64,000 nt of DNA, taken from the NCBI GenBank assembly GCA_937895435.1, contig CALAXT010000072.1:124001-188000 (forward strand). The letters run 5' to 3'. The stretch's first letter is position 1; each line of letters starts with the position of its first letter. The notes below the pieces were generated by a model that was not told where the DNA came from, did no database searches, and was given only the letters and a program-made list of their open reading frames with translations. This stretch comes from an uncultured Paracoccaceae bacterium (GTDB lineage: Bacteria > Pseudomonadota > Alphaproteobacteria > Rhodobacterales > Rhodobacteraceae). Shown piece by piece: positions 11,131 through 27,695 of this stretch. The position numbers were made by a program, and so were the translations under genes.

Positions 11131-12459
11131 TTATGCGTTCTTTATCCAGATTGCAGCCGGTCTTGACGAGCTGAGTTGTTTGTTTTCAAATTCAAAAACC
11201 GTTGGCGCCGTGGTTGAATAATCCCAACTGACCCGCAGCACTTTGGCAGGCCAGCGCGTTGGCACGACCGAGGGCAAATCGGGCGTCGCGTTGGTTAACA
11301 ACGATGCAACGGACGCGTATGAATTGCTCCAAAAACCCAACCAATACCCCCGCCCCAGTTCAAACCGAAAAGAAAGATCTGTCGTCACCGTCCCTGCGGA
11401 TGATAAATCAAGGTCTGGCGATTCATACAAAAGCCCCGCCGGATAAAAATCCGCATCCGACCCATAGATTACGATGCGCCCCAGGGCTGCCGGCTTCTGT
11501 GTAATAATCACCAGGCCTAATTTGGTGGCATCGATATCGCGCAACGGGGCAAAGGGGAATAACTCGCACCGATCAGGCGCAGATGAGACACCCGGCAGGT
11601 TTTGCAACCCACTGGTTGTCGGCGTGATCCAAGTGCCACTTTTGGCCAACACCAGCGGCGGCGCAACCACGTCACCCCCAACCGCACCGCCACCCCCTGC
11701 ACCCAGCACTTGGTTATGGCCGTTGACCCGTGACTGAAAGCCCGGCAGCGCGGCGTCATACCAAATTGCACCATCTTGCACCCCCTCAGGCTCCGAGCCA
11801 CCTCCGCCCAAAACAAGCCCCTCGGGCAAACGCACCATCGCACTCTGGCCATCCAAAGCCAGCGCCGTCTTGTAATCTCCGTCATCAGTGCGGATTTTCA
11901 TAGAAAACTCGTCATTTCCCAATAATCCAAACATCGCCCGCAAAACATAATCTGACTTAAAAGACATTGACGCCTCAGCCTCGGCACCAGTCTTGTTCAT
12001 TGTCAAATCCAACGACCCATCTGAGGTCATGAGCGCATTGGTTCCCGAAAACACAAAACGATTAAGGTCGTCGGGTGCGGTACCAATCCCCAGCGCATCC
12101 GTTTGGCGTGTATCATCTTTAACAATGAGTGCGCGCCATGTGTCCCCGGTATAGACGAGGGCATGCTGCTGCGCAGCATCCCATACCAACCACCCTTCAG
12201 CCGGTTGATGAAACACCCAGCCGCCCGCAAAAAAGGCGGCAACACATCCCTCTTGCCCAAGCCAAGCATCGGTTGCAGGCGCTGCCACGATGTAGCGTAC
12301 CCCCTCAGTTGGAAAGGCCGGCGGCGTATGCAGCTGGGCCGAGGAAACGCTCATTTGCACCAGTTGGTCCAACAACGCCAAAGCTTCATTCACCGTCACA
12401 TGCTTTTGGGCCTGTGCGGGCTGCAAAAGCGGCAGTTTAAGCTGTGTTGTTTCATTCAT
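11131..12459 (-). CDS. DUF2793 protein, probable GTA tail fibre
   Basis: A 442-residue protein starting MNETTQLKLPLLQPAQAQKH, the typical DUF2793 opening, with the domain over about the first 90 residues (VNEALALLDQLVQMSV). A beta-rich, Gly-rich middle (VLGAGGGGAVGGDVV) and a C-terminal beta domain follow, an architecture seen in phage fibres. Its ATG overlaps the g15 stop, so it is coupled to the GTA. As I recall, the R. capsulatus GTA tail-fibre gene is a DUF2793-type gene at a remote locus; here the gene lies within the main operon. The frame opens further upstream (to 12615) inside g15, which I reject. Confidence 0.75.
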   Translation of the reverse strand: MNETTQLKLPLLQPAQAQKHVTVNEALALLDQLVQMSVSSAQLHTPPAFPTEGVRYIVAAPATDAWLGQEGCVAAFFAGGWVFHQPAEGWLVWDAAQQHALVYTGDTWRALIVKDDTRQTDALGIGTAPDDLNRFVFSGTNALMTSDGSLDLTMNKTGAEAEASMSFKSDYVLRAMFGLLGNDEFSMKIRTDDGDYKTALALDGQSAMVRLPEGLVLGGGGSEPEGVQDGAIWYDAALPGFQSRVNGHNQVLGAGGGGAVGGDVVAPPLVLAKSGTWITPTTSGLQNLPGVSSAPDRCELFPFAPLRDIDATKLGLVIITQKPAALGRIVIYGSDADFYPAGLLYESPDLDLSSAGTVTTDLSFRFELGRGYWLGFWSNSYASVASLLTNATPDLPSVVPTRWPAKVLRVSWDYSTTAPTVFEFENKQLSSSRPAAIWIKNA

Positions 12460-15400
12460 TGACGACAATCCTTTTAAATGGGCCCGCTCCAAAGCGGTCT
12501 GATATCTGGGCAACTTGCAGTTCAAATCCACCAAGCACGCCGTCTGAGGCCTGCGCGGCGGCAGAATAGCTCCATTGGGGGCGAGACACCGTTGCTTCAT
12601 GGCTAAGCGTGCCATTTGACATTACCTGCACCAGATATTGCTCAGACGCCTCTACCAACGGCACGTCTTGTTCTTGCCATAAATCACCATCGCGCCGCGC
12701 ACGTCGGATCCAGCTCGCCCAAACCCCACCATCAGCAGCACGCACCGCACGCAGATGTGCCGGGCTATAAGGCCGCAGCCCTATGCCGCGAAAACTGGCG
12801 ACTTTGTGCACAAATGCAGGGTCATCATAACCAAGTTGGGCTGGACCAATGCGGTAATGCCGCTCAACACCGCGTGCTGATGACGGCAAACTGATCTGTG
12901 CCACAGCACTGCTCATTAGAACGACGATACTGCCGATGGGCCAAGTCTCTGGCATAATCGCATCCGTGCCGCACTGCCCCCGCAATCGCATCGACAACGC
13001 ATACGTATTTGGCGCAACCAATGTGGCTGTCGCAAATTGAAACAGCTCCCAATTCTCGGCACTGCCATCGCCGATCGCCATCAAATTGTCACCACTTAAC
13101 ACCCCACCAAGGCTCGATGAACTGAGCAGACCACTGTTGGTCTTAACCACAAGCGGCGCACCCCGATCCCAAAGCCCGGGCATTGCTGATAACAGCGCAT
13201 TTTGGGTCACACCAAAAACCGCTGGTGCGTCCAGCAACTGACGCCACGTGTAGCCCTCATCAAAATTGGCATCATAAAGCGCAACAGAACCGGGCCAAGG
13301 CACCGCCGACACCGCCAAATGTGGCGCATGCGGATCTTCGTCGCCACTCATCAATGGCAGGTCCAGAAACTGTGGATAGGTCGGAACAGGGGCCACAAAC
13401 GGGCGCATCGCCACACGCTCTTCAGCAAAATCACTGGGCACATAAATACCGGGCTCAACCCGCACGGCCTCAAGTTCTAAATGGCCCGCCATTTCCACCC
13501 GATCAATCCGAAAAAGCCCCTCGGCCCCGCCATCGCGCAACGCCACCACTGCACCTGCACCAATTGCAAGCCGCGAGGGTGGCAACCGAAACCGCACTCG
13601 GTCCCGGGCCACATGCGCTTCGGCCAGCCAGCGCTCTGCGATGGCACGCCCCTCGGCTTGTGTCAGAACCAAAGGCAAATCACTTTGTGAAACGCTGGGC
13701 GCGGTGTCATCGGGCAAAACCGCTTCGGCTGATCGAATTTCATAGACACCATCTGCCTCGATAAATCCCAGTTGAACACGCCCTGCGGTCTCAGCCTCGG
13801 CCGAGCGTCCCAGTTCAAACACCGCAGCCCCGTCATCGGCAACTGCCAGATCATCGGGTCCCAGCGTCACCTCGGCCTCTCTCCCGCGCATCTGAAAGAC
13901 AACCTTGCCGTCCCGCTCCACCGCATCAAAGCCATAAGCCAGCATCAGCGTTTGCAGACTGGCACGGGCAGTCTGGGTCGACTCAAAACGATACCCCCGC
14001 ACCGCACCATAAAGCCCGCTGACATCAAATGTGGTTACACCACTCTTGCGGCAAATCTCGGCCACCACATTTGCCAAGGGCTGCAAAAGAGCACGCCCGG
14101 TCAACCAGTGGCCCCGGGCATGATTTTCGCCGTCGCTCCACAGCGATATCGCGTTTGGAAACGCAGGATATGGCCGCGCATCCCAGGCCCAAACATGCGC
14201 ATGGGCCCAATCCACCATCCGCCCGTCATAGTCAGACGCGGTGGGGTTGTTGTCTGGCATATTCCAGAATTGCGCCATGGCCCGATGATACTGCAGCAAC
14301 ATAAGATCATCACGCCGCCCATTTGAATAATGCGGCAACGCGGACTCTGATGATTTTGCATCCAGAAACTTATTGGGCTGGTTCGCCCCCTTATCAATCG
14401 CGGCGCAGCCCAATTCGGTGAACCATATGGGCTTTGATCCCGGAACCCAGGCCGTTGGCGTGGCACTGCGTTTGCCGTCAACACGCTCATGATGTGGGCC
14501 GTTCCACCAGCTTTTGATATCCTTGAACCGATAGATCCAAGCCTCGTCATGCGCGCCATCAGAGATCGGCGTGCGGATCTGCGCCTCTCGATGCGCATGT
14601 GAGGCATAATACCACGCAAACCCCTCGCCACCCATAATATTGGCCTTAAGGTAATCGAGATTATAGACAGAGCCCCAAGCCGCATCAGCATGTGCAGGCC
14701 CGTCGCGCCAATCGGCAAGCGGCATGTAATTATCAATACCGATGAAATCGATCGCCTCATCCGCCCATAGCGGGTCCAGATGAAAAAAGACATCACCGTT
14801 GCCAGGGTGACAGCCAAAGTATTCCGACCAATCCGCAGCATAAGAAATCCGCGTCTCAGCCCCCAGAATGGCCCGCACATCCCCCGCCAACCGCCGCAAC
14901 TCCGACACAGCGGGAAAGACATTCTGCGCCGCGCGGATCTGCGTCAAACCGCGCATTTCCGAGCCAATACAAAACGCATCCACCCCACCAGCCGCCTTTG
15001 CCAAATGCGCATAATGCAAAATAAACCGGCGAAACGAGAATTCATCAGGCCCACGATACTCCACGTCAGCCCCGCTGATCACAAAGTCTGACGCAGCCGC
15101 CTGCCCGAAAAATTCAGACACTTCCGCTGTGGCGGCGTCCGTGCCATCGGGTGACCCATCTTGGCCCGGCGCCCGTGATAACGTCACCCGCCCCCGCCAA
15201 GGCAGCACGGCTTGATCTGGCGCATCACTCCAAGGGTCCGCCCGCCCATTGCCCGCCAGCTGTTCCATCAGCACAAACGGGTAAAACATCACCTCTTGCC
15301 CGCGCTCTTTTATCGCTGCAATGGCCTCAATCACAGATTGGTCCGAGGGCGTGCCACCATAAACCGGTCGGCCATTCACTTGCGCAATTGTCTCAGCCTG

Positions 15401-16366
15401 CGCCCGCATCACACCGCAAACGCGCCAAGGCATGGGTGCCGCATCTTGCGCACGTTGTTCAACCTTCGGCTTGATCTGACACATCCCACAGCGCAAATCA
15501 TCGCCAAACCATGAAACAACCAGGGAAACCGAGCCACATCGGGGCAGCTCTTGTCGCATAGCATTCAGTGCAGTCGTAAAATCGGTCTTTCCGCTTGCGG
15601 TGTTGATATTCAATGACGTGTTGACGCCGGGGCCACTTTCGGCATGCACCCGACTGGTTGCCAAGGCATATTCCCCAGTCCCCGGCATCATCGCAACAGC
15701 CCGAACGGCGCCAGCCAAATCAGGCGCCACGTCCCCATCCAAGCCTTCAGCAGAGCGGAACACCTCAAAGGTAAATTGTGGCACACGATTGCCAAACCGG
15801 CTTAGATCCAGATCTTCAATCACCACATAAGCGGTGCCTCGATAGCCCGGCGCCTGCCCCACCCCCTCTACCGCCTCAATCTTCGGATCTGGCAGCTGAT
15901 CCACCCGACCCTCATAAACACGCAGGCTCATCAAATCAGCCGCCAGTTGCTGCCCATCTGCCCAAATTCGACCAATGCCCGAAATTTCACCGTCACAAAG
16001 TGCAATCGCAAGACTGACCGAATAGCTATATTGCGTCACAGATGCGCGTCGCGCGCTCCCCTTACCGCCGCTGCTGGTCGTAGAACTTTCAGCAAAACGC
16101 GAGGCCCAGATCACCTGGCCACTCAGGCGCATACGCCCAACAACCCGCGCAATTGCACGGCCCTCAGTGGCACCGGTCAGCCGCAGCCGATCCAACCGCC
16201 CAACCTCGACCGCCGCAGAACCACCGCCCAACAATGTCTGGTCGATCATCTGCCCAAGTGTCGCCCCAGCTGCCCGCCCAAGAACAGCCCCCGATAATCC
16301 CAAAACCGCACCACCAAAGCCCGCCCCAAAGGCCGCACCCGCCGCACCAAGAACCAGTGTTGCCAT
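12452..16366 (-). CDS. GTA g15, giant tail-tip protein with TIM-barrel-like domain
   Basis: The largest GTA protein, 1,304 residues, the tail-tip or megatron protein that closes the tail and contacts the recipient cell. It begins with a Gly/Ala-rich hydrophobic segment (MATLVLGAAGAAFGAGFGGA). A glycoside-hydrolase/TIM-barrel-like domain lies at about 430-740, and phage tail/fibronectin-like regions follow to about 1,100. The C-terminus contains a WSYSAAAQASDG-type end segment. The ATG at 16366 overlaps the g14 stop as TGATG, preferable to the GTG one codon upstream. Length matches the family, with no frameshift, so the tail tip appears functional. Confidence 0.93.
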   Translation of the reverse strand: MATLVLGAAGAAFGAGFGGAVLGLSGAVLGRAAGATLGQMIDQTLLGGGSAAVEVGRLDRLRLTGATEGRAIARVVGRMRLSGQVIWASRFAESSTTSSGGKGSARRASVTQYSYSVSLAIALCDGEISGIGRIWADGQQLAADLMSLRVYEGRVDQLPDPKIEAVEGVGQAPGYRGTAYVVIEDLDLSRFGNRVPQFTFEVFRSAEGLDGDVAPDLAGAVRAVAMMPGTGEYALATSRVHAESGPGVNTSLNINTASGKTDFTTALNAMRQELPRCGSVSLVVSWFGDDLRCGMCQIKPKVEQRAQDAAPMPWRVCGVMRAQAETIAQVNGRPVYGGTPSDQSVIEAIAAIKERGQEVMFYPFVLMEQLAGNGRADPWSDAPDQAVLPWRGRVTLSRAPGQDGSPDGTDAATAEVSEFFGQAAASDFVISGADVEYRGPDEFSFRRFILHYAHLAKAAGGVDAFCIGSEMRGLTQIRAAQNVFPAVSELRRLAGDVRAILGAETRISYAADWSEYFGCHPGNGDVFFHLDPLWADEAIDFIGIDNYMPLADWRDGPAHADAAWGSVYNLDYLKANIMGGEGFAWYYASHAHREAQIRTPISDGAHDEAWIYRFKDIKSWWNGPHHERVDGKRSATPTAWVPGSKPIWFTELGCAAIDKGANQPNKFLDAKSSESALPHYSNGRRDDLMLLQYHRAMAQFWNMPDNNPTASDYDGRMVDWAHAHVWAWDARPYPAFPNAISLWSDGENHARGHWLTGRALLQPLANVVAEICRKSGVTTFDVSGLYGAVRGYRFESTQTARASLQTLMLAYGFDAVERDGKVVFQMRGREAEVTLGPDDLAVADDGAAVFELGRSAEAETAGRVQLGFIEADGVYEIRSAEAVLPDDTAPSVSQSDLPLVLTQAEGRAIAERWLAEAHVARDRVRFRLPPSRLAIGAGAVVALRDGGAEGLFRIDRVEMAGHLELEAVRVEPGIYVPSDFAEERVAMRPFVAPVPTYPQFLDLPLMSGDEDPHAPHLAVSAVPWPGSVALYDANFDEGYTWRQLLDAPAVFGVTQNALLSAMPGLWDRGAPLVVKTNSGLLSSSSLGGVLSGDNLMAIGDGSAENWELFQFATATLVAPNTYALSMRLRGQCGTDAIMPETWPIGSIVVLMSSAVAQISLPSSARGVERHYRIGPAQLGYDDPAFVHKVASFRGIGLRPYSPAHLRAVRAADGGVWASWIRRARRDGDLWQEQDVPLVEASEQYLVQVMSNGTLSHEATVSRPQWSYSAAAQASDGVLGGFELQVAQISDRFGAGPFKRIVVNE

Positions 16367-16815
16367 CACAAAACCTCTTTAGGAAAGGCAAACCGCGCCA
16401 CCAATCGGCGCTGCCACGGCGCAGAAAAGGGACTTTCAACCACCCCGTGCCCACTGAAAGCATGGATGAAACTGGCGTTTGCTCCCACTTCAGTCACAAT
16501 ACCCAGATGTTTTGCAACACCAGCCTCACGCATGCGAAACAACACCACATCCCCAACATCCGCTGCCCATTTCGCCTTGCGCAGCAAATGCCGCTCGGCC
16601 GCGCGCCACAGCGCCTCATCACGGCTGGGTTCAGACCAATCGTGGGTATAGGGCGGCACCTGTTCCGGCTCAGTGCCATAAAGTGCGCGCCAAACACCGC
16701 GCAAAAGGCCCAGACAATCCGCCCCCGCCCCCAAGCTCGACGCTTGATGATGATAGGGCGTGCCAAGCCAACGCCGTGCCTCGGTAACAATCATCCTGCA
16801 TTGCTCTTGTATCAT
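16366..16815 (-). CDS. GTA g14, NlpC/P60-type tail peptidase
   Basis: A cell-wall peptidase of 149 residues associated with the tail tip, thought to open recipient peptidoglycan during DNA delivery. The NlpC/P60 fold is indicated by the catalytic Cys in GADCLGLLRG (near residue 34) and the His in AKHLGIV (near 105), with a further HAFSGHGV segment. It overlaps g13 by ATGA and g15 by TGATG. It matches the RcGTA g14 position and size. Intact catalytic residues support a functional particle. Confidence 0.9.
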   Translation of the reverse strand: MIQEQCRMIVTEARRWLGTPYHHQASSLGAGADCLGLLRGVWRALYGTEPEQVPPYTHDWSEPSRDEALWRAAERHLLRKAKWAADVGDVVLFRMREAGVAKHLGIVTEVGANASFIHAFSGHGVVESPFSAPWQRRLVARFAFPKEVL

Positions 16816-24756: not shown

Positions 24757-26100
24757 CTAAAGCACGCGCATCCGCGGGCGCTGCCATTGGCCCGCCGGCA
24801 AAATCATTAACTCACTCAACGCCCAAACCAGCGCATCCACCCGGTCAGGGCTCCCCTTCCCTTGATACCCACGCTGCGTCATACGGCACATCTGGTCTTC
24901 TAACCCCCCAAGCCCACGCAAATGCATAATTCGCCCCTGCTCATAGAGGGCCGCGATAGGTTCTGCCCGCACCACTTTGCCCCGCGCCGCCCGCACCGCA
25001 CGAAACGGCACCATCGGGTCAATCTGGCGAATGACATTTTCAACCAAATCCCCCCCCTGATTAACCTCAGCCACCAAACGTTCAGCCCCGTAGCGCGCCG
25101 CGGCCGACACCGCCGCCTCGGCCCATTCCAAAGGTGACGCGGCCGATACGCTGGCATCTTCTAACACAAAGGCCCGCCAGGTGTTTGGCGCGCCGTGGCT
25201 CACCACACCCGCCACCACAATACCGCATTCATCCGATCCACTGTGGCCCGTGACCGGCGGATCAACCGCCACCACAATCCGGCTCAATTCAGGGGCCTGA
25301 TCCACCCGGCATGCTTCCAATGCTGCCAAATTCCACAGGGCACCCTCGACATCTTCCAACAGCGCACCCTCCAACTCCTGCCGCCCCAAACGGGTGCCGG
25401 CATAGCGCGCCTGCATTTCCTGCAGAAAAGAAGCCGCCAGATAGGCCCGATTGGCATCGGTGGGCGCATGGGTGCGCACCGTGGATGGGTTGGCCAACAG
25501 CGCTTTCAAAACACCGACATTGCGCGGTGTCGTGGTCACAACCTGCCTTGGGTTTTCACCAATCCGCAGCGCAAACTGCAACATATCCCAAGCTTCTTCA
25601 GCCCGTTTCCATTTGGCCAGTTCATCCACCCAAGCTGCATCAAATTGCGGCCCCCGCAGGCGTTCAGGATCATGCGCTGAAAAGACCTGCGCCACCGCAC
25701 CATTGGGCCAAACCAACCGCTTGCGCCCCGCTTCCCACTCTGGGCGGCGGTCGGGCGGCGAACAGGCCAAAATCCCACTTTCACCAAACACCATCACCTC
25801 GCGGGCCTGATCAATTGTCTCGCCCACCAGGGCCACCCGCCGTGATCGCCCACGCTCAAGTGGCCGCGCCCCCTCGACCTCGGCACGCACCCATTCGGCC
25901 CCAGCGCGGGTCTTACCTGCACCGCGCCCGCCCAAAATCACCCAACTGCGCCAATCACCCTCAGGTGGCAGTTGATGGGGCAATGCCCAAAACTCAAACA
26001 GCCAAGGCAGCGCCACAAGGGCCGCATCGCTTAGGCTTGCAATAAACGCTTCAACCGTTTCCTGCGGCGCGCAAGCAAGCCAGGCGGCGCCCGATCTCAT
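24757..26100 (-). CDS. GTA g2, large terminase subunit
   Basis: The DNA-packaging motor and nuclease. From the ATG at 26100 it has 447 residues. The ATPase domain shows a Walker A of the terminase type, GGRGAGKT (57-64), and a Walker B, AAWVDELAKW (about 180). The RNase-H-like nuclease domain starts near VVAVDPPVTG and includes the later acidic SPDRVDALVWAL segment. An in-frame ATG at 26169 would overlap g1 by 119 bp; the chosen start still overlaps it by 50 bp. GTA packaging is by non-specific headful, so this enzyme does not need a pac site (family knowledge). Confidence 0.93.
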   Translation of the reverse strand: MRSGAAWLACAPQETVEAFIASLSDAALVALPWLFEFWALPHQLPPEGDWRSWVILGGRGAGKTRAGAEWVRAEVEGARPLERGRSRRVALVGETIDQAREVMVFGESGILACSPPDRRPEWEAGRKRLVWPNGAVAQVFSAHDPERLRGPQFDAAWVDELAKWKRAEEAWDMLQFALRIGENPRQVVTTTPRNVGVLKALLANPSTVRTHAPTDANRAYLAASFLQEMQARYAGTRLGRQELEGALLEDVEGALWNLAALEACRVDQAPELSRIVVAVDPPVTGHSGSDECGIVVAGVVSHGAPNTWRAFVLEDASVSAASPLEWAEAAVSAAARYGAERLVAEVNQGGDLVENVIRQIDPMVPFRAVRAARGKVVRAEPIAALYEQGRIMHLRGLGGLEDQMCRMTQRGYQGKGSPDRVDALVWALSELMILPAGQWQRPRMRVL

Positions 26101-26377
26101 CTCTTGCTGCTGCAAAATCAAGCGCCTGTCCCGCAGCGGCTCCGGTTTCTTGTCTGCGAAGTTTTTCAACCCGTGCCCTTTCTTCCAGCGCCGCCTGCAA
26201 TGCTTTGCTTAAATGGCGCAATTGCTCGGCCACATCCTTGGCCCGCCCCAGATCGCCTGCGCGGATCTGGTCTATGATGCCGTCCAGCACCATAACTGAG
26301 CGTGAAAAATGCCTATGCGTCACCAGAAGAAGATCCTCTGGCAACAAATCATCCCCGATGGTTTTCAACTCGGTCAT
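26051..26377 (-). CDS. GTA g1, small terminase subunit
   Basis: A 108-residue helical protein (MTELKTIGDDLLPEDLLLVT). It is the first gene of the cluster and matches RcGTA g1, which has been identified as the small terminase. There is no obvious helix-turn-helix DNA-binding domain, in keeping with non-specific packaging. The central coiled-coil region (LRHLSKALQAALEERARVEKL) would form the oligomer. A consensus-like promoter lies 100-128 bp upstream, and an inverted repeat flanks its ribosome site. Confidence 0.85.
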   Translation of the reverse strand: MTELKTIGDDLLPEDLLLVTHRHFSRSVMVLDGIIDQIRAGDLGRAKDVAEQLRHLSKALQAALEERARVEKLRRQETGAAAGQALDFAAARDEIGRRLACLRAAGNG

Positions 26378-26380
26378 TGT

Positions 26381-26443
26381 TGGGAAACCCGCCTCTCATG
26401 CTTGCCCGCACGAGCGAAATGAAAAAACGGCCAAGGTTTCCCA
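26381..26443 (-). promoter_or_regulatory. inverted repeat in the GTA leader
   Basis: TGGGAAACC (26381-26389) and GGTTTCCCA (26435-26443) are perfect 9-bp inverted copies 45 bp apart, in the 5' leader of g1. One arm lies 4 bp from the start codon next to the purine-rich GAGAGGCGGG. The transcript could fold and hide the g1 start region. The arms could alternatively be two half-sites for a regulator. Confidence 0.45.
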
Positions 26444-26476
26444 TGACCGCATGCCCACTTCTTCTAGCTTGCCTTT

Positions 26477-26505
26477 TTTATATCTAAGGCAGATCGCAAT
26501 GTCAA
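26477..26505 (-). promoter_or_regulatory. near-consensus sigma-70 promoter for the GTA cluster
   Basis: On the minus strand TTGACA (26500-26505) is followed by a 17-bp spacer and TATAAA (26477-26482). The -35 box is perfect and the -10 box matches 5 of 6, the strongest promoter-like sequence I found in the window. It would start transcription near 26470, about 93 nt upstream of the g1 ATG, in the gap after mltG. Confidence 0.7.
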
Positions 26506-26534
26506 TAACTATCTTTAAGGTTGTTTTTTTATAT

Positions 26535-27695
26535 TCACTGCGCCTGCTTTGATTTGGCGGCCTCGGCCTCAATCGCACGCCATTTTGCAACATTTTTCAG
26601 ATGCGCATCATAGCTTGCCGCAAACGCATGCCCACCCGTCCCATCAGCCACAAAATAAAGATCTTCGGTGCGGTCAGGGTTCAGGGCTGCCAGAATACTT
26701 GCACGCCCTGGATTGGCGATCGGCGTCGGCGGCAAACCCGCGATCTTATAAGTGTTATAGGGGGTCTCGCGGTCAAGCTCACTACGCCGCAACCCGCGCC
26801 CCAACGCACCCTTGCCCCCGGTCACACCATAAATCACCGTCGGATCGGTCTGCAGCGGCATGCCCTTTTCCAGCCGATTAACAAAGACCGAGGCCACACG
26901 TCCCCGTTCCTCGGCAACCGCAGTTTCTTTCTCGATAATCGATGCCAAAATCAGCGCTTCTTGTGGTGTTGAAATTGGCAAACCCTCAGCCCGATCGGCC
27001 CACAGGTCCTCCAACGTCCGGGTTTGGCGGGCCGCCATTTCGGCCAGCAAACGCGTCCGATCCGCACCACGCACAACCTCATATCCAACCGGCGCCAGTG
27101 TGCCCTCAGATGGCACTTGCCCAATCTCACCGCTCAGAAAATCAGCCGCACGCAGCGCCTCAACGACCTGCCAACTGGTCGCCCCCTCAGCCACCGTCAC
27201 CTGCAACCGCAGATCGGGGTCCTCCAGCATCACGCGGGCCGTTTCGGGCACAGACTCGGGGGAAAACCGCGCTAATTCCACATACAGCCCTGAGACTGGT
27301 TCAACCTCGCGCAGCACGATTTCACGCGCCAGCACCCCGATACGATAATTCATTTCAGCGCCACAGGTGCTACTGCCCCCTGCGGTGATCTGATCCAATA
27401 TCCCCACCATCGAGCTTTCCGGCGTGATCAGAAAACTGCCATATTTTAACAAACCGTCCCGGTTTGAATACCGCGCACCCAACCGAAAAATCACCGCGCT
27501 GCTGACTGCGCCGCGCTGCTCCAAGGTCCGCGACACAGCGCCCAGCGATCCCCCCCGCTCAACCTTCAGACAAATCGCCTGTGTCAGTGGCCCCGGGCCC
27601 GAAAATTGACGTTGCGCCCAGCCCAGCAAACCCGCACCAACGATCAGCGCCACGATAAGAAGCGTGACCGCGTTTGAGGCGATATTACGCCACAT
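26535..27695 (-). CDS. mltG: endolytic murein transglycosylase MltG
   Basis: An inner-membrane enzyme that cleaves nascent glycan strands and is thought to terminate them; 386 residues. One N-terminal transmembrane helix (about 8-27) is followed by LysM-like and YceG domains. The catalytic Glu is in LASIIEKETAVAEERG, followed by the family motifs VFVNRLEKGMPLQTDPTVIYG and NTYKIAGLPPTPIANPG. The ATG overlaps the fabF stop (TGATG), so it is the last gene of the fab operon. The GTA promoter follows. Confidence 0.95.
   Translation of the reverse strand: MWRNIASNAVTLLIVALIVGAGLLGWAQRQFSGPGPLTQAICLKVERGGSLGAVSRTLEQRGAVSSAVIFRLGARYSNRDGLLKYGSFLITPESSMVGILDQITAGGSSTCGAEMNYRIGVLAREIVLREVEPVSGLYVELARFSPESVPETARVMLEDPDLRLQVTVAEGATSWQVVEALRAADFLSGEIGQVPSEGTLAPVGYEVVRGADRTRLLAEMAARQTRTLEDLWADRAEGLPISTPQEALILASIIEKETAVAEERGRVASVFVNRLEKGMPLQTDPTVIYGVTGGKGALGRGLRRSELDRETPYNTYKIAGLPPTPIANPGRASILAALNPDRTEDLYFVADGTGGHAFAASYDAHLKNVAKWRAIEAEAAKSKQAQ

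Follow-up and report, generated by a model that had tools for sequence, protein, structure and literature searches.

The late-gene switch of phage lambda combines a promoter that is able to fire, pR', an early terminator, tR', and the antiterminator Q, which is loaded via a site between the -35 and -10 elements. Antitermination has reportedly been found for a Bartonella GTA as well, to judge by the title of that work. The CcGTA system of Caulobacter crescentus comprises the sigma-70-type promoter PgtaT, the factors GafY, GafZ and IHF, and a terminator, terGTA, that precedes most of the cluster (PMC11150451). According to that report, RNA polymerase with GafZ passes terGTA and also an E. coli terminator, and PgtaT fires independently of GafYZ once a near-consensus -35 element has been put in. 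GafY and GafZ are counterparts of the two ends of GafA, GafZ being homologous to its C-terminal part, and the authors raised the possibility that GafA might have an unrecognised antitermination activity (PMC11150451).

In R. capsulatus, GafA binds a 50-bp probe covering the stretch 76-125 bp upstream of g1, which contains the -10 element and the start site of RcGTA (PMC6363796). It binds both the promoter and the omega subunit of RNA polymerase, and has been published as an activator that recruits polymerase. Its C-terminal part binds the stretch from the -35 and -10 elements to the start site, with specific binding of the N-terminal part to either flank (PMC9638019). The accessible text of these two accounts treats GafA as an activator of initiation and mentions no leader terminator (PMC6363796; PMC9638019). 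Within the same family, a Rho-independent terminator in a 5' leader, yielding a short RNA, is known from UpsM in the dcw cluster of R. sphaeroides (PMC5089854). No account of a leader terminator in a Rhodobacteraceae GTA was found in the literature consulted, mostly freely readable text without figures or supplements.

The stretch of DNA analysed here, called the window, is 64 kb long and carries on its minus strand a GTA cluster of the RcGTA type, with genes for the terminase, portal, prohead protease, HK97 capsid and megatron baseplate proteins. The first gene, g1 (26051..26377, minus), has tblastn matches in most relatives and no Pfam or NCBIfam match. It is followed by g2, the large terminase gene (24757..26169, minus; Terminase_6N and Terminase_6C), and near the far end of the cluster by the gene for the GTA baseplate megatron protein (12452..16369, minus; NF048004 GTA_megatron, 1833 bits). 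The upstream neighbour, mltG (26535..27695, minus; TIGR00247), is read in the same direction.

Between the stop codon of mltG (26535) and the ATG of g1 (26377) lies a 157-bp gap (26378-26534). Inside it, at 26505-26477 of the minus strand, is TTGACA-17-TATAAA, composed of a -35 element (TTGACA, 26500..26505), a 17-nt spacer (26483..26499) and a -10 element (TATAAA, 26477..26482). The predicted transcription start, an A at 26470, is 7 nt past the -10 element and opens the initially transcribed stretch AAGCTAGAAGAAGTGGGC (26453..26470, minus), which is near-invariant in columns 41-58 of the family alignment, A1. With a spacing of 15-19 the exact pattern occurs only once in the window and in none of 100 shuffles, and TTGACA-N16-18-TATAAA has a single match in the 2,659,221-base genome. 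The reversed pattern likewise occurs once, so that about one chance match per genome is to be expected, and position therefore outweighs uniqueness. The full consensus, TTGACA-N16-18-TATAAT, has no match in the same 2,659,221 bases. A promoter scan of the window omitted the site because it demands T as the last base of the -10 element.

The conservation of this region was followed across the family. A terminase search gave a match in 263 of 295 family genomes, all of different genera, and stretches upstream of the terminase were fetched for 80 of the 263, from the upper part of the list, some being skipped, mainly near contig ends. After g1 and mltG had been located in the fetched stretches, 72 promoters and leaders were aligned, namely the window copy and 71 from other genera. 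Nine of the 81 loci (own included) were left out for want of the automatic anchor (L003, L034, L048, L050, L060, L069, L072, L078 and L079); L048, L050, L003, L079 and L069 were recovered at ≥25 bits by a covariance model with filters off.

The columns of TTGAC are conserved in 72, 71, 72, 71 and 70 of the 72 promoters, and the sixth -35 base is A in 9/72. The -10 element begins with T in 71 and A in 72 of them, the -35/-10 alignment is free of gaps, and the start-site base is A in 72/72. Chance origin is ruled out by this family-wide conservation, and TTGACA-17-TATAAA forms the GTA operon's core promoter. The sigma-70-like promoter that the initial annotation had proposed in the gap is borne out by the sequence and by 72 promoters, and the predicted start near 26470 agrees with the invariant A and with the published RcGTA map (PMC6363796). 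Promoter, start and the stretch bound by GafA lie at the same distance from g1 as in RcGTA (76-125 bp upstream), in a cluster with the same type of regulator (PMC6363796; PMC9638019). In the CcGTA promoter, by contrast, the -35 element is degenerate (AATCAT), where the family has TTGAC (PMC11150451). The comparison with relatives from 71 other genera reveals a deeply conserved promoter, of which the window holds one copy of a shared element.

Two descriptions of the promoter as exceptional have to be qualified. As a match to the E. coli consensus TTGACA/TATAAT it is indeed near-perfect, scoring 11/12, the top of 71 scored promoters, 16 of which score 10, and its hexamers are conserved at a sigma-70 spacing of 16-18 bp. 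The T at -7 of the -10 element is missing; the window copy has A there, and only 5/71 promoters have T. Most sigma-70 promoters of Alphaproteobacteria that have been analysed are also without -7T (PMC8407463). Because this base is missing, promoter strength cannot be read from the consensus. Nor is the promoter unusual for a GTA in having a TTGAC -35 element, which is the rule among the GTAs of the family; it stands apart in being the best consensus match of 71.

A perfect CtrA-like TTAA-N7-TTAA occurs within 90 bp before the -35 element of 14/71 GTA promoters (for example L005, L007, L027 and L031), most often at -26 or -56, the mean in shuffles being 0.2 of 71. Published gel shifts detected no CtrA binding at the RcGTA promoter (PMC6363796).

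The leader that begins at 26470 runs into a hairpin, GCGGTCATGG-GAAA-CCTTGGCCGT (26427..26450, minus; -13.2 kcal/mol), with one internal T.T mismatch, and then into TTTTTC. The T-tract, TTTTTT, occupies 26422..26427 (minus) and corresponds to conserved alignment columns 93-97. Together with its lower stem, the hairpin has a folding energy of -26.1 kcal/mol (z -3.19), and 0/200 shuffles are equally stable. A simple terminator scan had omitted it because of the internal mismatch. A stable, G+C-rich hairpin directly followed by a T-tract is the hallmark of an intrinsic terminator, and the leader hairpin with its tract is, as read from its sequence, an intrinsic (Rho-independent) terminator between the start site and g1, at which transcription would end.

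In a strict test, which required a hairpin of ≥6 pairs and ≤-8 kcal/mol with ≥5 T in 7, a terminator was found in 62/72 leaders, compared with 4/72 upstream stretches, 0/72 flank stretches and 8/72 shuffled leaders. The tract columns, 93-97, are T in 62, 70, 69, 71 and 55 of the 72 leaders. Since the first loci had been selected for terminase similarity and their anchor was made up of leader letters, the test was repeated on leaders picked independently, only via TTGAC and the first transcribed bases, with no regard to a terminator; these second sets partly share genomes with the first 72 loci. One set came from named genomes (Ruegeria, Jannaschia, Sulfitobacter, Roseovarius, Actibacterium and others), in which 80 of 118 stretches gave 77 distinct leaders. 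Among the matches listed, 70/77 of these have a strict terminator, and the controls gave 2/76 upstream, 0/69 downstream and 10/77 shuffled. For leaders from IMG/VR the result was 34/39, with controls of 2/32 upstream, 0/39 downstream and 6/39 shuffled. The test was failed by 10/72, 7/77 (again among the matches listed) and 5/39 leaders in the three sets.

A second hairpin, CTCGTGC...GCATGAG (26395..26414, minus), lies just 5' of the ribosome-binding stretch of g1, in columns 126-158 of A1. It is kept in most relatives, not all, and 79.6% and 87.6% of the cells in its two parts are paired. For both leader hairpins together, 87.6% of cells pair, compared with 81.3% in shuffles, 48 cells have changed on both sides, compared with 13.5, and the covariation score is 0.200, compared with 0.118; none of 500 shuffles was as high in any of the three, figures that lean towards the tested structure because it was read from the same alignment. 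Ten pairs have changed on both sides (9/500 shuffles as high) and 27 further pair types occur (11/500 as high). In the terminator stem, 6/7 pairs have changed on both sides in some relative. This pattern of substitution argues that the leader structure is selected.

The terminator stem can be extended below the T-tract, at 26461-26416 (minus), where GAAGTGGG pairs around CATTTC and the tract then falls inside a longer hairpin. Alternating purines opposite T in relatives are consistent with such an enclosing hairpin. In the window, the terminator loop and the part of the leader nearest g1 also share an inverted repeat, TGGGAAACC/GGTTTCCCA; by eye it is absent from relatives, and it was given no weight for this reason. 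Rfam gave no match at E≤1 over 26000-27000, and hence no known structured leader RNA in that interval.

A covariance model of the promoter-leader element has one strong match in its own genome (1.3e-24), the next being at 0.096. In the family, 221/295 genomes have a match at E≤0.01 and, by our own count of the listed values, 205/295 at E≤1e-4. Extra matches in 16 family genomes that were searched again are mostly confined to the hairpin part (model 58-118 or nearby) and resemble ordinary terminators. Outside the family, where stricter filters were used, only two of 380 genomes of the class, G346 and G404, have matches at E≤1e-4, and that in G404 is far from its terminase; 93 of the 380 have a terminase match at E≤1e-60. 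With 205/295 inside the family and 2/380 outside, the element is essentially a family trait. By eye, L060, L089, L090, L092, L094 and L095 have no such leader, some of them still with TTGAC. A leader pattern derived from published R. capsulatus primers had no match in IMG/VR, nor in the 295 family genomes (≤3 mismatches).

Several individual loci are of interest in their own right. The match in G346 (L096), outside the family, is full-length and leader-like (5.2e-7) and about 630 bp upstream of the terminase match. In three family genomes, at L105 (G141), L106 (G095) and L107 (G203), a complete promoter-leader element (model 1-130) follows mltG, and the 4-5 kb fetched contain no tblastn match to g1, g2, g3 or g5; the element there looks like a scar of GTA loss. 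By eye, L107 has kept the start of g1 and apparently also the end of the final GTA gene, and an insertion sequence appears to have inserted at L106. Two other loci, from two genera, have an internal GTA deletion with the same junction (L290 in G055, 428-1681; L291 in G104, 285-2765 minus). At this junction the terminase, at about residue 184, is fused in frame to the GTA_TIM part of the megatron protein (profile position 204), and the promoter and leader upstream are intact.

The genome to which the window belongs encodes one GafA-type protein, a full-length protein of 376 aa with an N-terminal HTH and DUF6456 (E 7.4e-64 to 6.1e-63). Its gene shares a contig with the GTA cluster (L002; G000 contig C72) and lies about 25 kb ahead of the window. 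GafA-type proteins are present in 269/295 family genomes, and at least three genomes with a leader match at ≤1e-4 are without one (G114, G160 and G196), all of them in many contigs or incomplete. Upstream of the own gafA, 73 bp before the start codon, is the CtrA-like site TTAAC-N6-GTAAC, the sequence reported as the CtrA site in R. capsulatus (PMC6363796). A CtrA-like site agreeing at 9 or 10 of 10 positions was found in 18/21 gafA promoters read, own included.

A possible site for GafA in the GTA promoter was sought in the spacer. The motif CGNNCG occurs there at one fixed offset in 60/71 promoters, the mean in shuffled spacers being 18.0 and the maximum 24. In Caulobacter the GafZ site also lies between the -35 and -10 elements, and its left half-site, GCGCCCG, contains CGNNCG, as these 60 promoters do (PMC11150451). 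Upstream of the -35 element, CGNNCG[G/C] is found in 47/71 promoters, in 31 places at 34-37 bp before the element; shuffles have a mean of 16.6, but a coding stretch has it in 33/71. The window promoter is among the 11/71 without the spacer motif at the fixed offset, having CGATCT there, and no CGNNCG[G/C] occurs in the 70 bp before its -35 element. Because the motif is short, its distribution is only a hint that it may be a GafA site. A GafA box shared between GTA and gafA promoters was also considered: the own gafA promoter has CGAACGG inside its CtrA-like site. This was dropped, since the same six bases were found in only one of 20 other gafA upstream stretches (L234).

Two features of an antitermination switch of the Q/GafZ type are present, a terminator between the promoter and the structural genes and a homologous regulator encoded in the genome. 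The promoter, the terminator, their conservation, the covariation and the gafA gene were all observed here; we infer that the terminator is active in cells and is overcome by GafA. In the reading that we favour, to which we assign a probability of about 0.6, a promoter capable of firing is gated by a promoter-proximal terminator, from which it would be released by GafA acting partly as an antiterminator. RNA polymerase with sigma-70 would be able to start at 26470, and the intrinsic terminator, at +21 to +49, would stop most transcripts at about 49 nt, as a leader RNA, and so keep the whole cluster from g1 onwards off. GafA, made when CtrA and quorum signals permit, would bind between and around the -35 and -10 elements, load onto polymerase at the promoter and allow read-through; it probably aids initiation too. 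The pairing of promoter and terminator, kept across the family, points to early stopping as what silences the cluster, not only to a failure to start. Of the two possibilities raised in the initial annotation, one was strong expression in the absence of repression, the other control downstream through leader folding or attenuation. No conserved repressor site was seen, and the second possibility is well supported by the conserved leader terminator.

The lambda terminator tR' is farther from its start site than the leader terminator is here, and GafA is not Q. The lambda switch, which is also discussed in the Caulobacter report, nevertheless resembles this locus in its layout of promoter and early terminator and in the promoter-loaded factor that is proposed (PMC11150451). 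A precedent for antitermination by GafA may be seen in GafZ of Caulobacter, for which it has been demonstrated; for GafA it is proposed by analogy. The Caulobacter terminator differs in consisting of three 150-bp repeats after the first gene, whereas here it is small, in the leader and within 50 nt of the start (PMC11150451). UpsM differs in belonging to a housekeeping operon with a 268-nt leader, for which the accessible text describes no phage-type regulator (PMC5089854).

Several points tell against gating by antitermination: some leaders fail the strict test, some GTA loci of the family show no such leader by eye, the known Caulobacter terminator is not in the leader, the window promoter lacks CGNNCG, the candidate GafA motif, and GafA has been published as an activator of initiation via omega, for which the weak -10 element leaves room. 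Control might accordingly lie in initiation alone, the promoter being weak without GafA for lack of -7T, GafA recruiting polymerase, and the hairpin having a minor role, for example in RNA stability or translation of g1. The base is T in only 5/71 promoters here and is missing at most alphaproteobacterial sigma-70 promoters analysed (PMC8407463), and GafA binds the promoter and omega (PMC9638019). Such control leaves unexplained why the hairpin and T-tract are kept while the loop sequence varies freely, and why 62/72, 70/77 (among the matches listed) and 34/39 leaders fit a terminator; the missing -7T makes it a possibility, if a rather unlikely one. A change peculiar to this species is unlikely too, namely drift to constitutive initiation, with consensus -35 and -10 elements gained and the spacer motif lost, so that silence would rest wholly on the terminator or the GTA would be decaying. 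The promoter is the best sigma-70 match of 71 (11/12) and one of the 11/71 without CGNNCG at the fixed offset, but ten other GTA promoters are likewise without it, the large GTA genes checked are open frames with good family matches, and the basis is one genome, the single representative of its genus in the set compared.

The hairpin might also be an insulator that blocks read-through from a fabF-mltG operon into the GTA. In 51/72 aligned loci mltG precedes the GTA and is read in the same direction, a scan of the window lists no terminator-like site in the gap between mltG and the GTA, and L105, L106 and L107 keep the leader after mltG with no detectable g1, g2, g3 or g5. In those three genomes, however, the whole element including the promoter is kept, as in a scar, and since the GTA start is 5' of the hairpin, the GTA's own transcript must cross it. 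The strict terminator is also found in 17/21 aligned loci whose fetched stretch has no mltG, and a leader terminator is still present in 12/13 loci with another terminator-like hairpin after mltG; the predicted terminator travels with the GTA, not with mltG. A hairpin that is inside the GTA transcript, and is present without mltG or with another hairpin after it, makes insulation quite improbable. A classical attenuator, in which a leader peptide, a small molecule or temperature would toggle terminator and antiterminator folds, could draw on the second conserved hairpin after the terminator and on an ATG at +1 in 33/71 leaders. Against it, the hairpin is preceded by only about 19 nt, in which no space for alternative pairing was seen, and Rfam has no match at E≤1 in 26000-27000. 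The frame from +1 is not conserved; AAG stands at +1 in 32/71, open lengths range from 4 to 64 codons and 13/71 have no stop in 300 nt. A conserved leader peptide is ruled out by the varying frame and start codon of the 71 promoters, and with a hairpin that opens some 20 nt from the start there is little room for a switch made of RNA only; an attenuator is highly improbable.

Gating by a leader terminator that GafA releases can be carried further, to a family-wide scheme that we put forward tentatively, as possible more than probable. Low-level transcription of the GTA would start in every cell and be cut at about 49 nt, and GafA, as a promoter-loaded processive antiterminator, would set the rare producers apart at elongation as well as at initiation, a conserved short leader RNA being made in the other cells. 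Initiation in this species, with its best consensus match of 71 and without the spacer motif, would also have been freed from GafA, and the terminator would be the main lock.

The presence of a conserved terminator directly after the promoter makes early termination as a lock, and GafA as an antiterminator, directly testable. A leader terminator of known position provides an assay for the antitermination activity of GafA raised by the Caulobacter authors (PMC11150451). As a caution, transcripts that begin at the GTA promoter are no proof that the GTA is expressed. These findings bear on how GTAs stay silent in most cells, though their genes sit in nearly every genome of the family.
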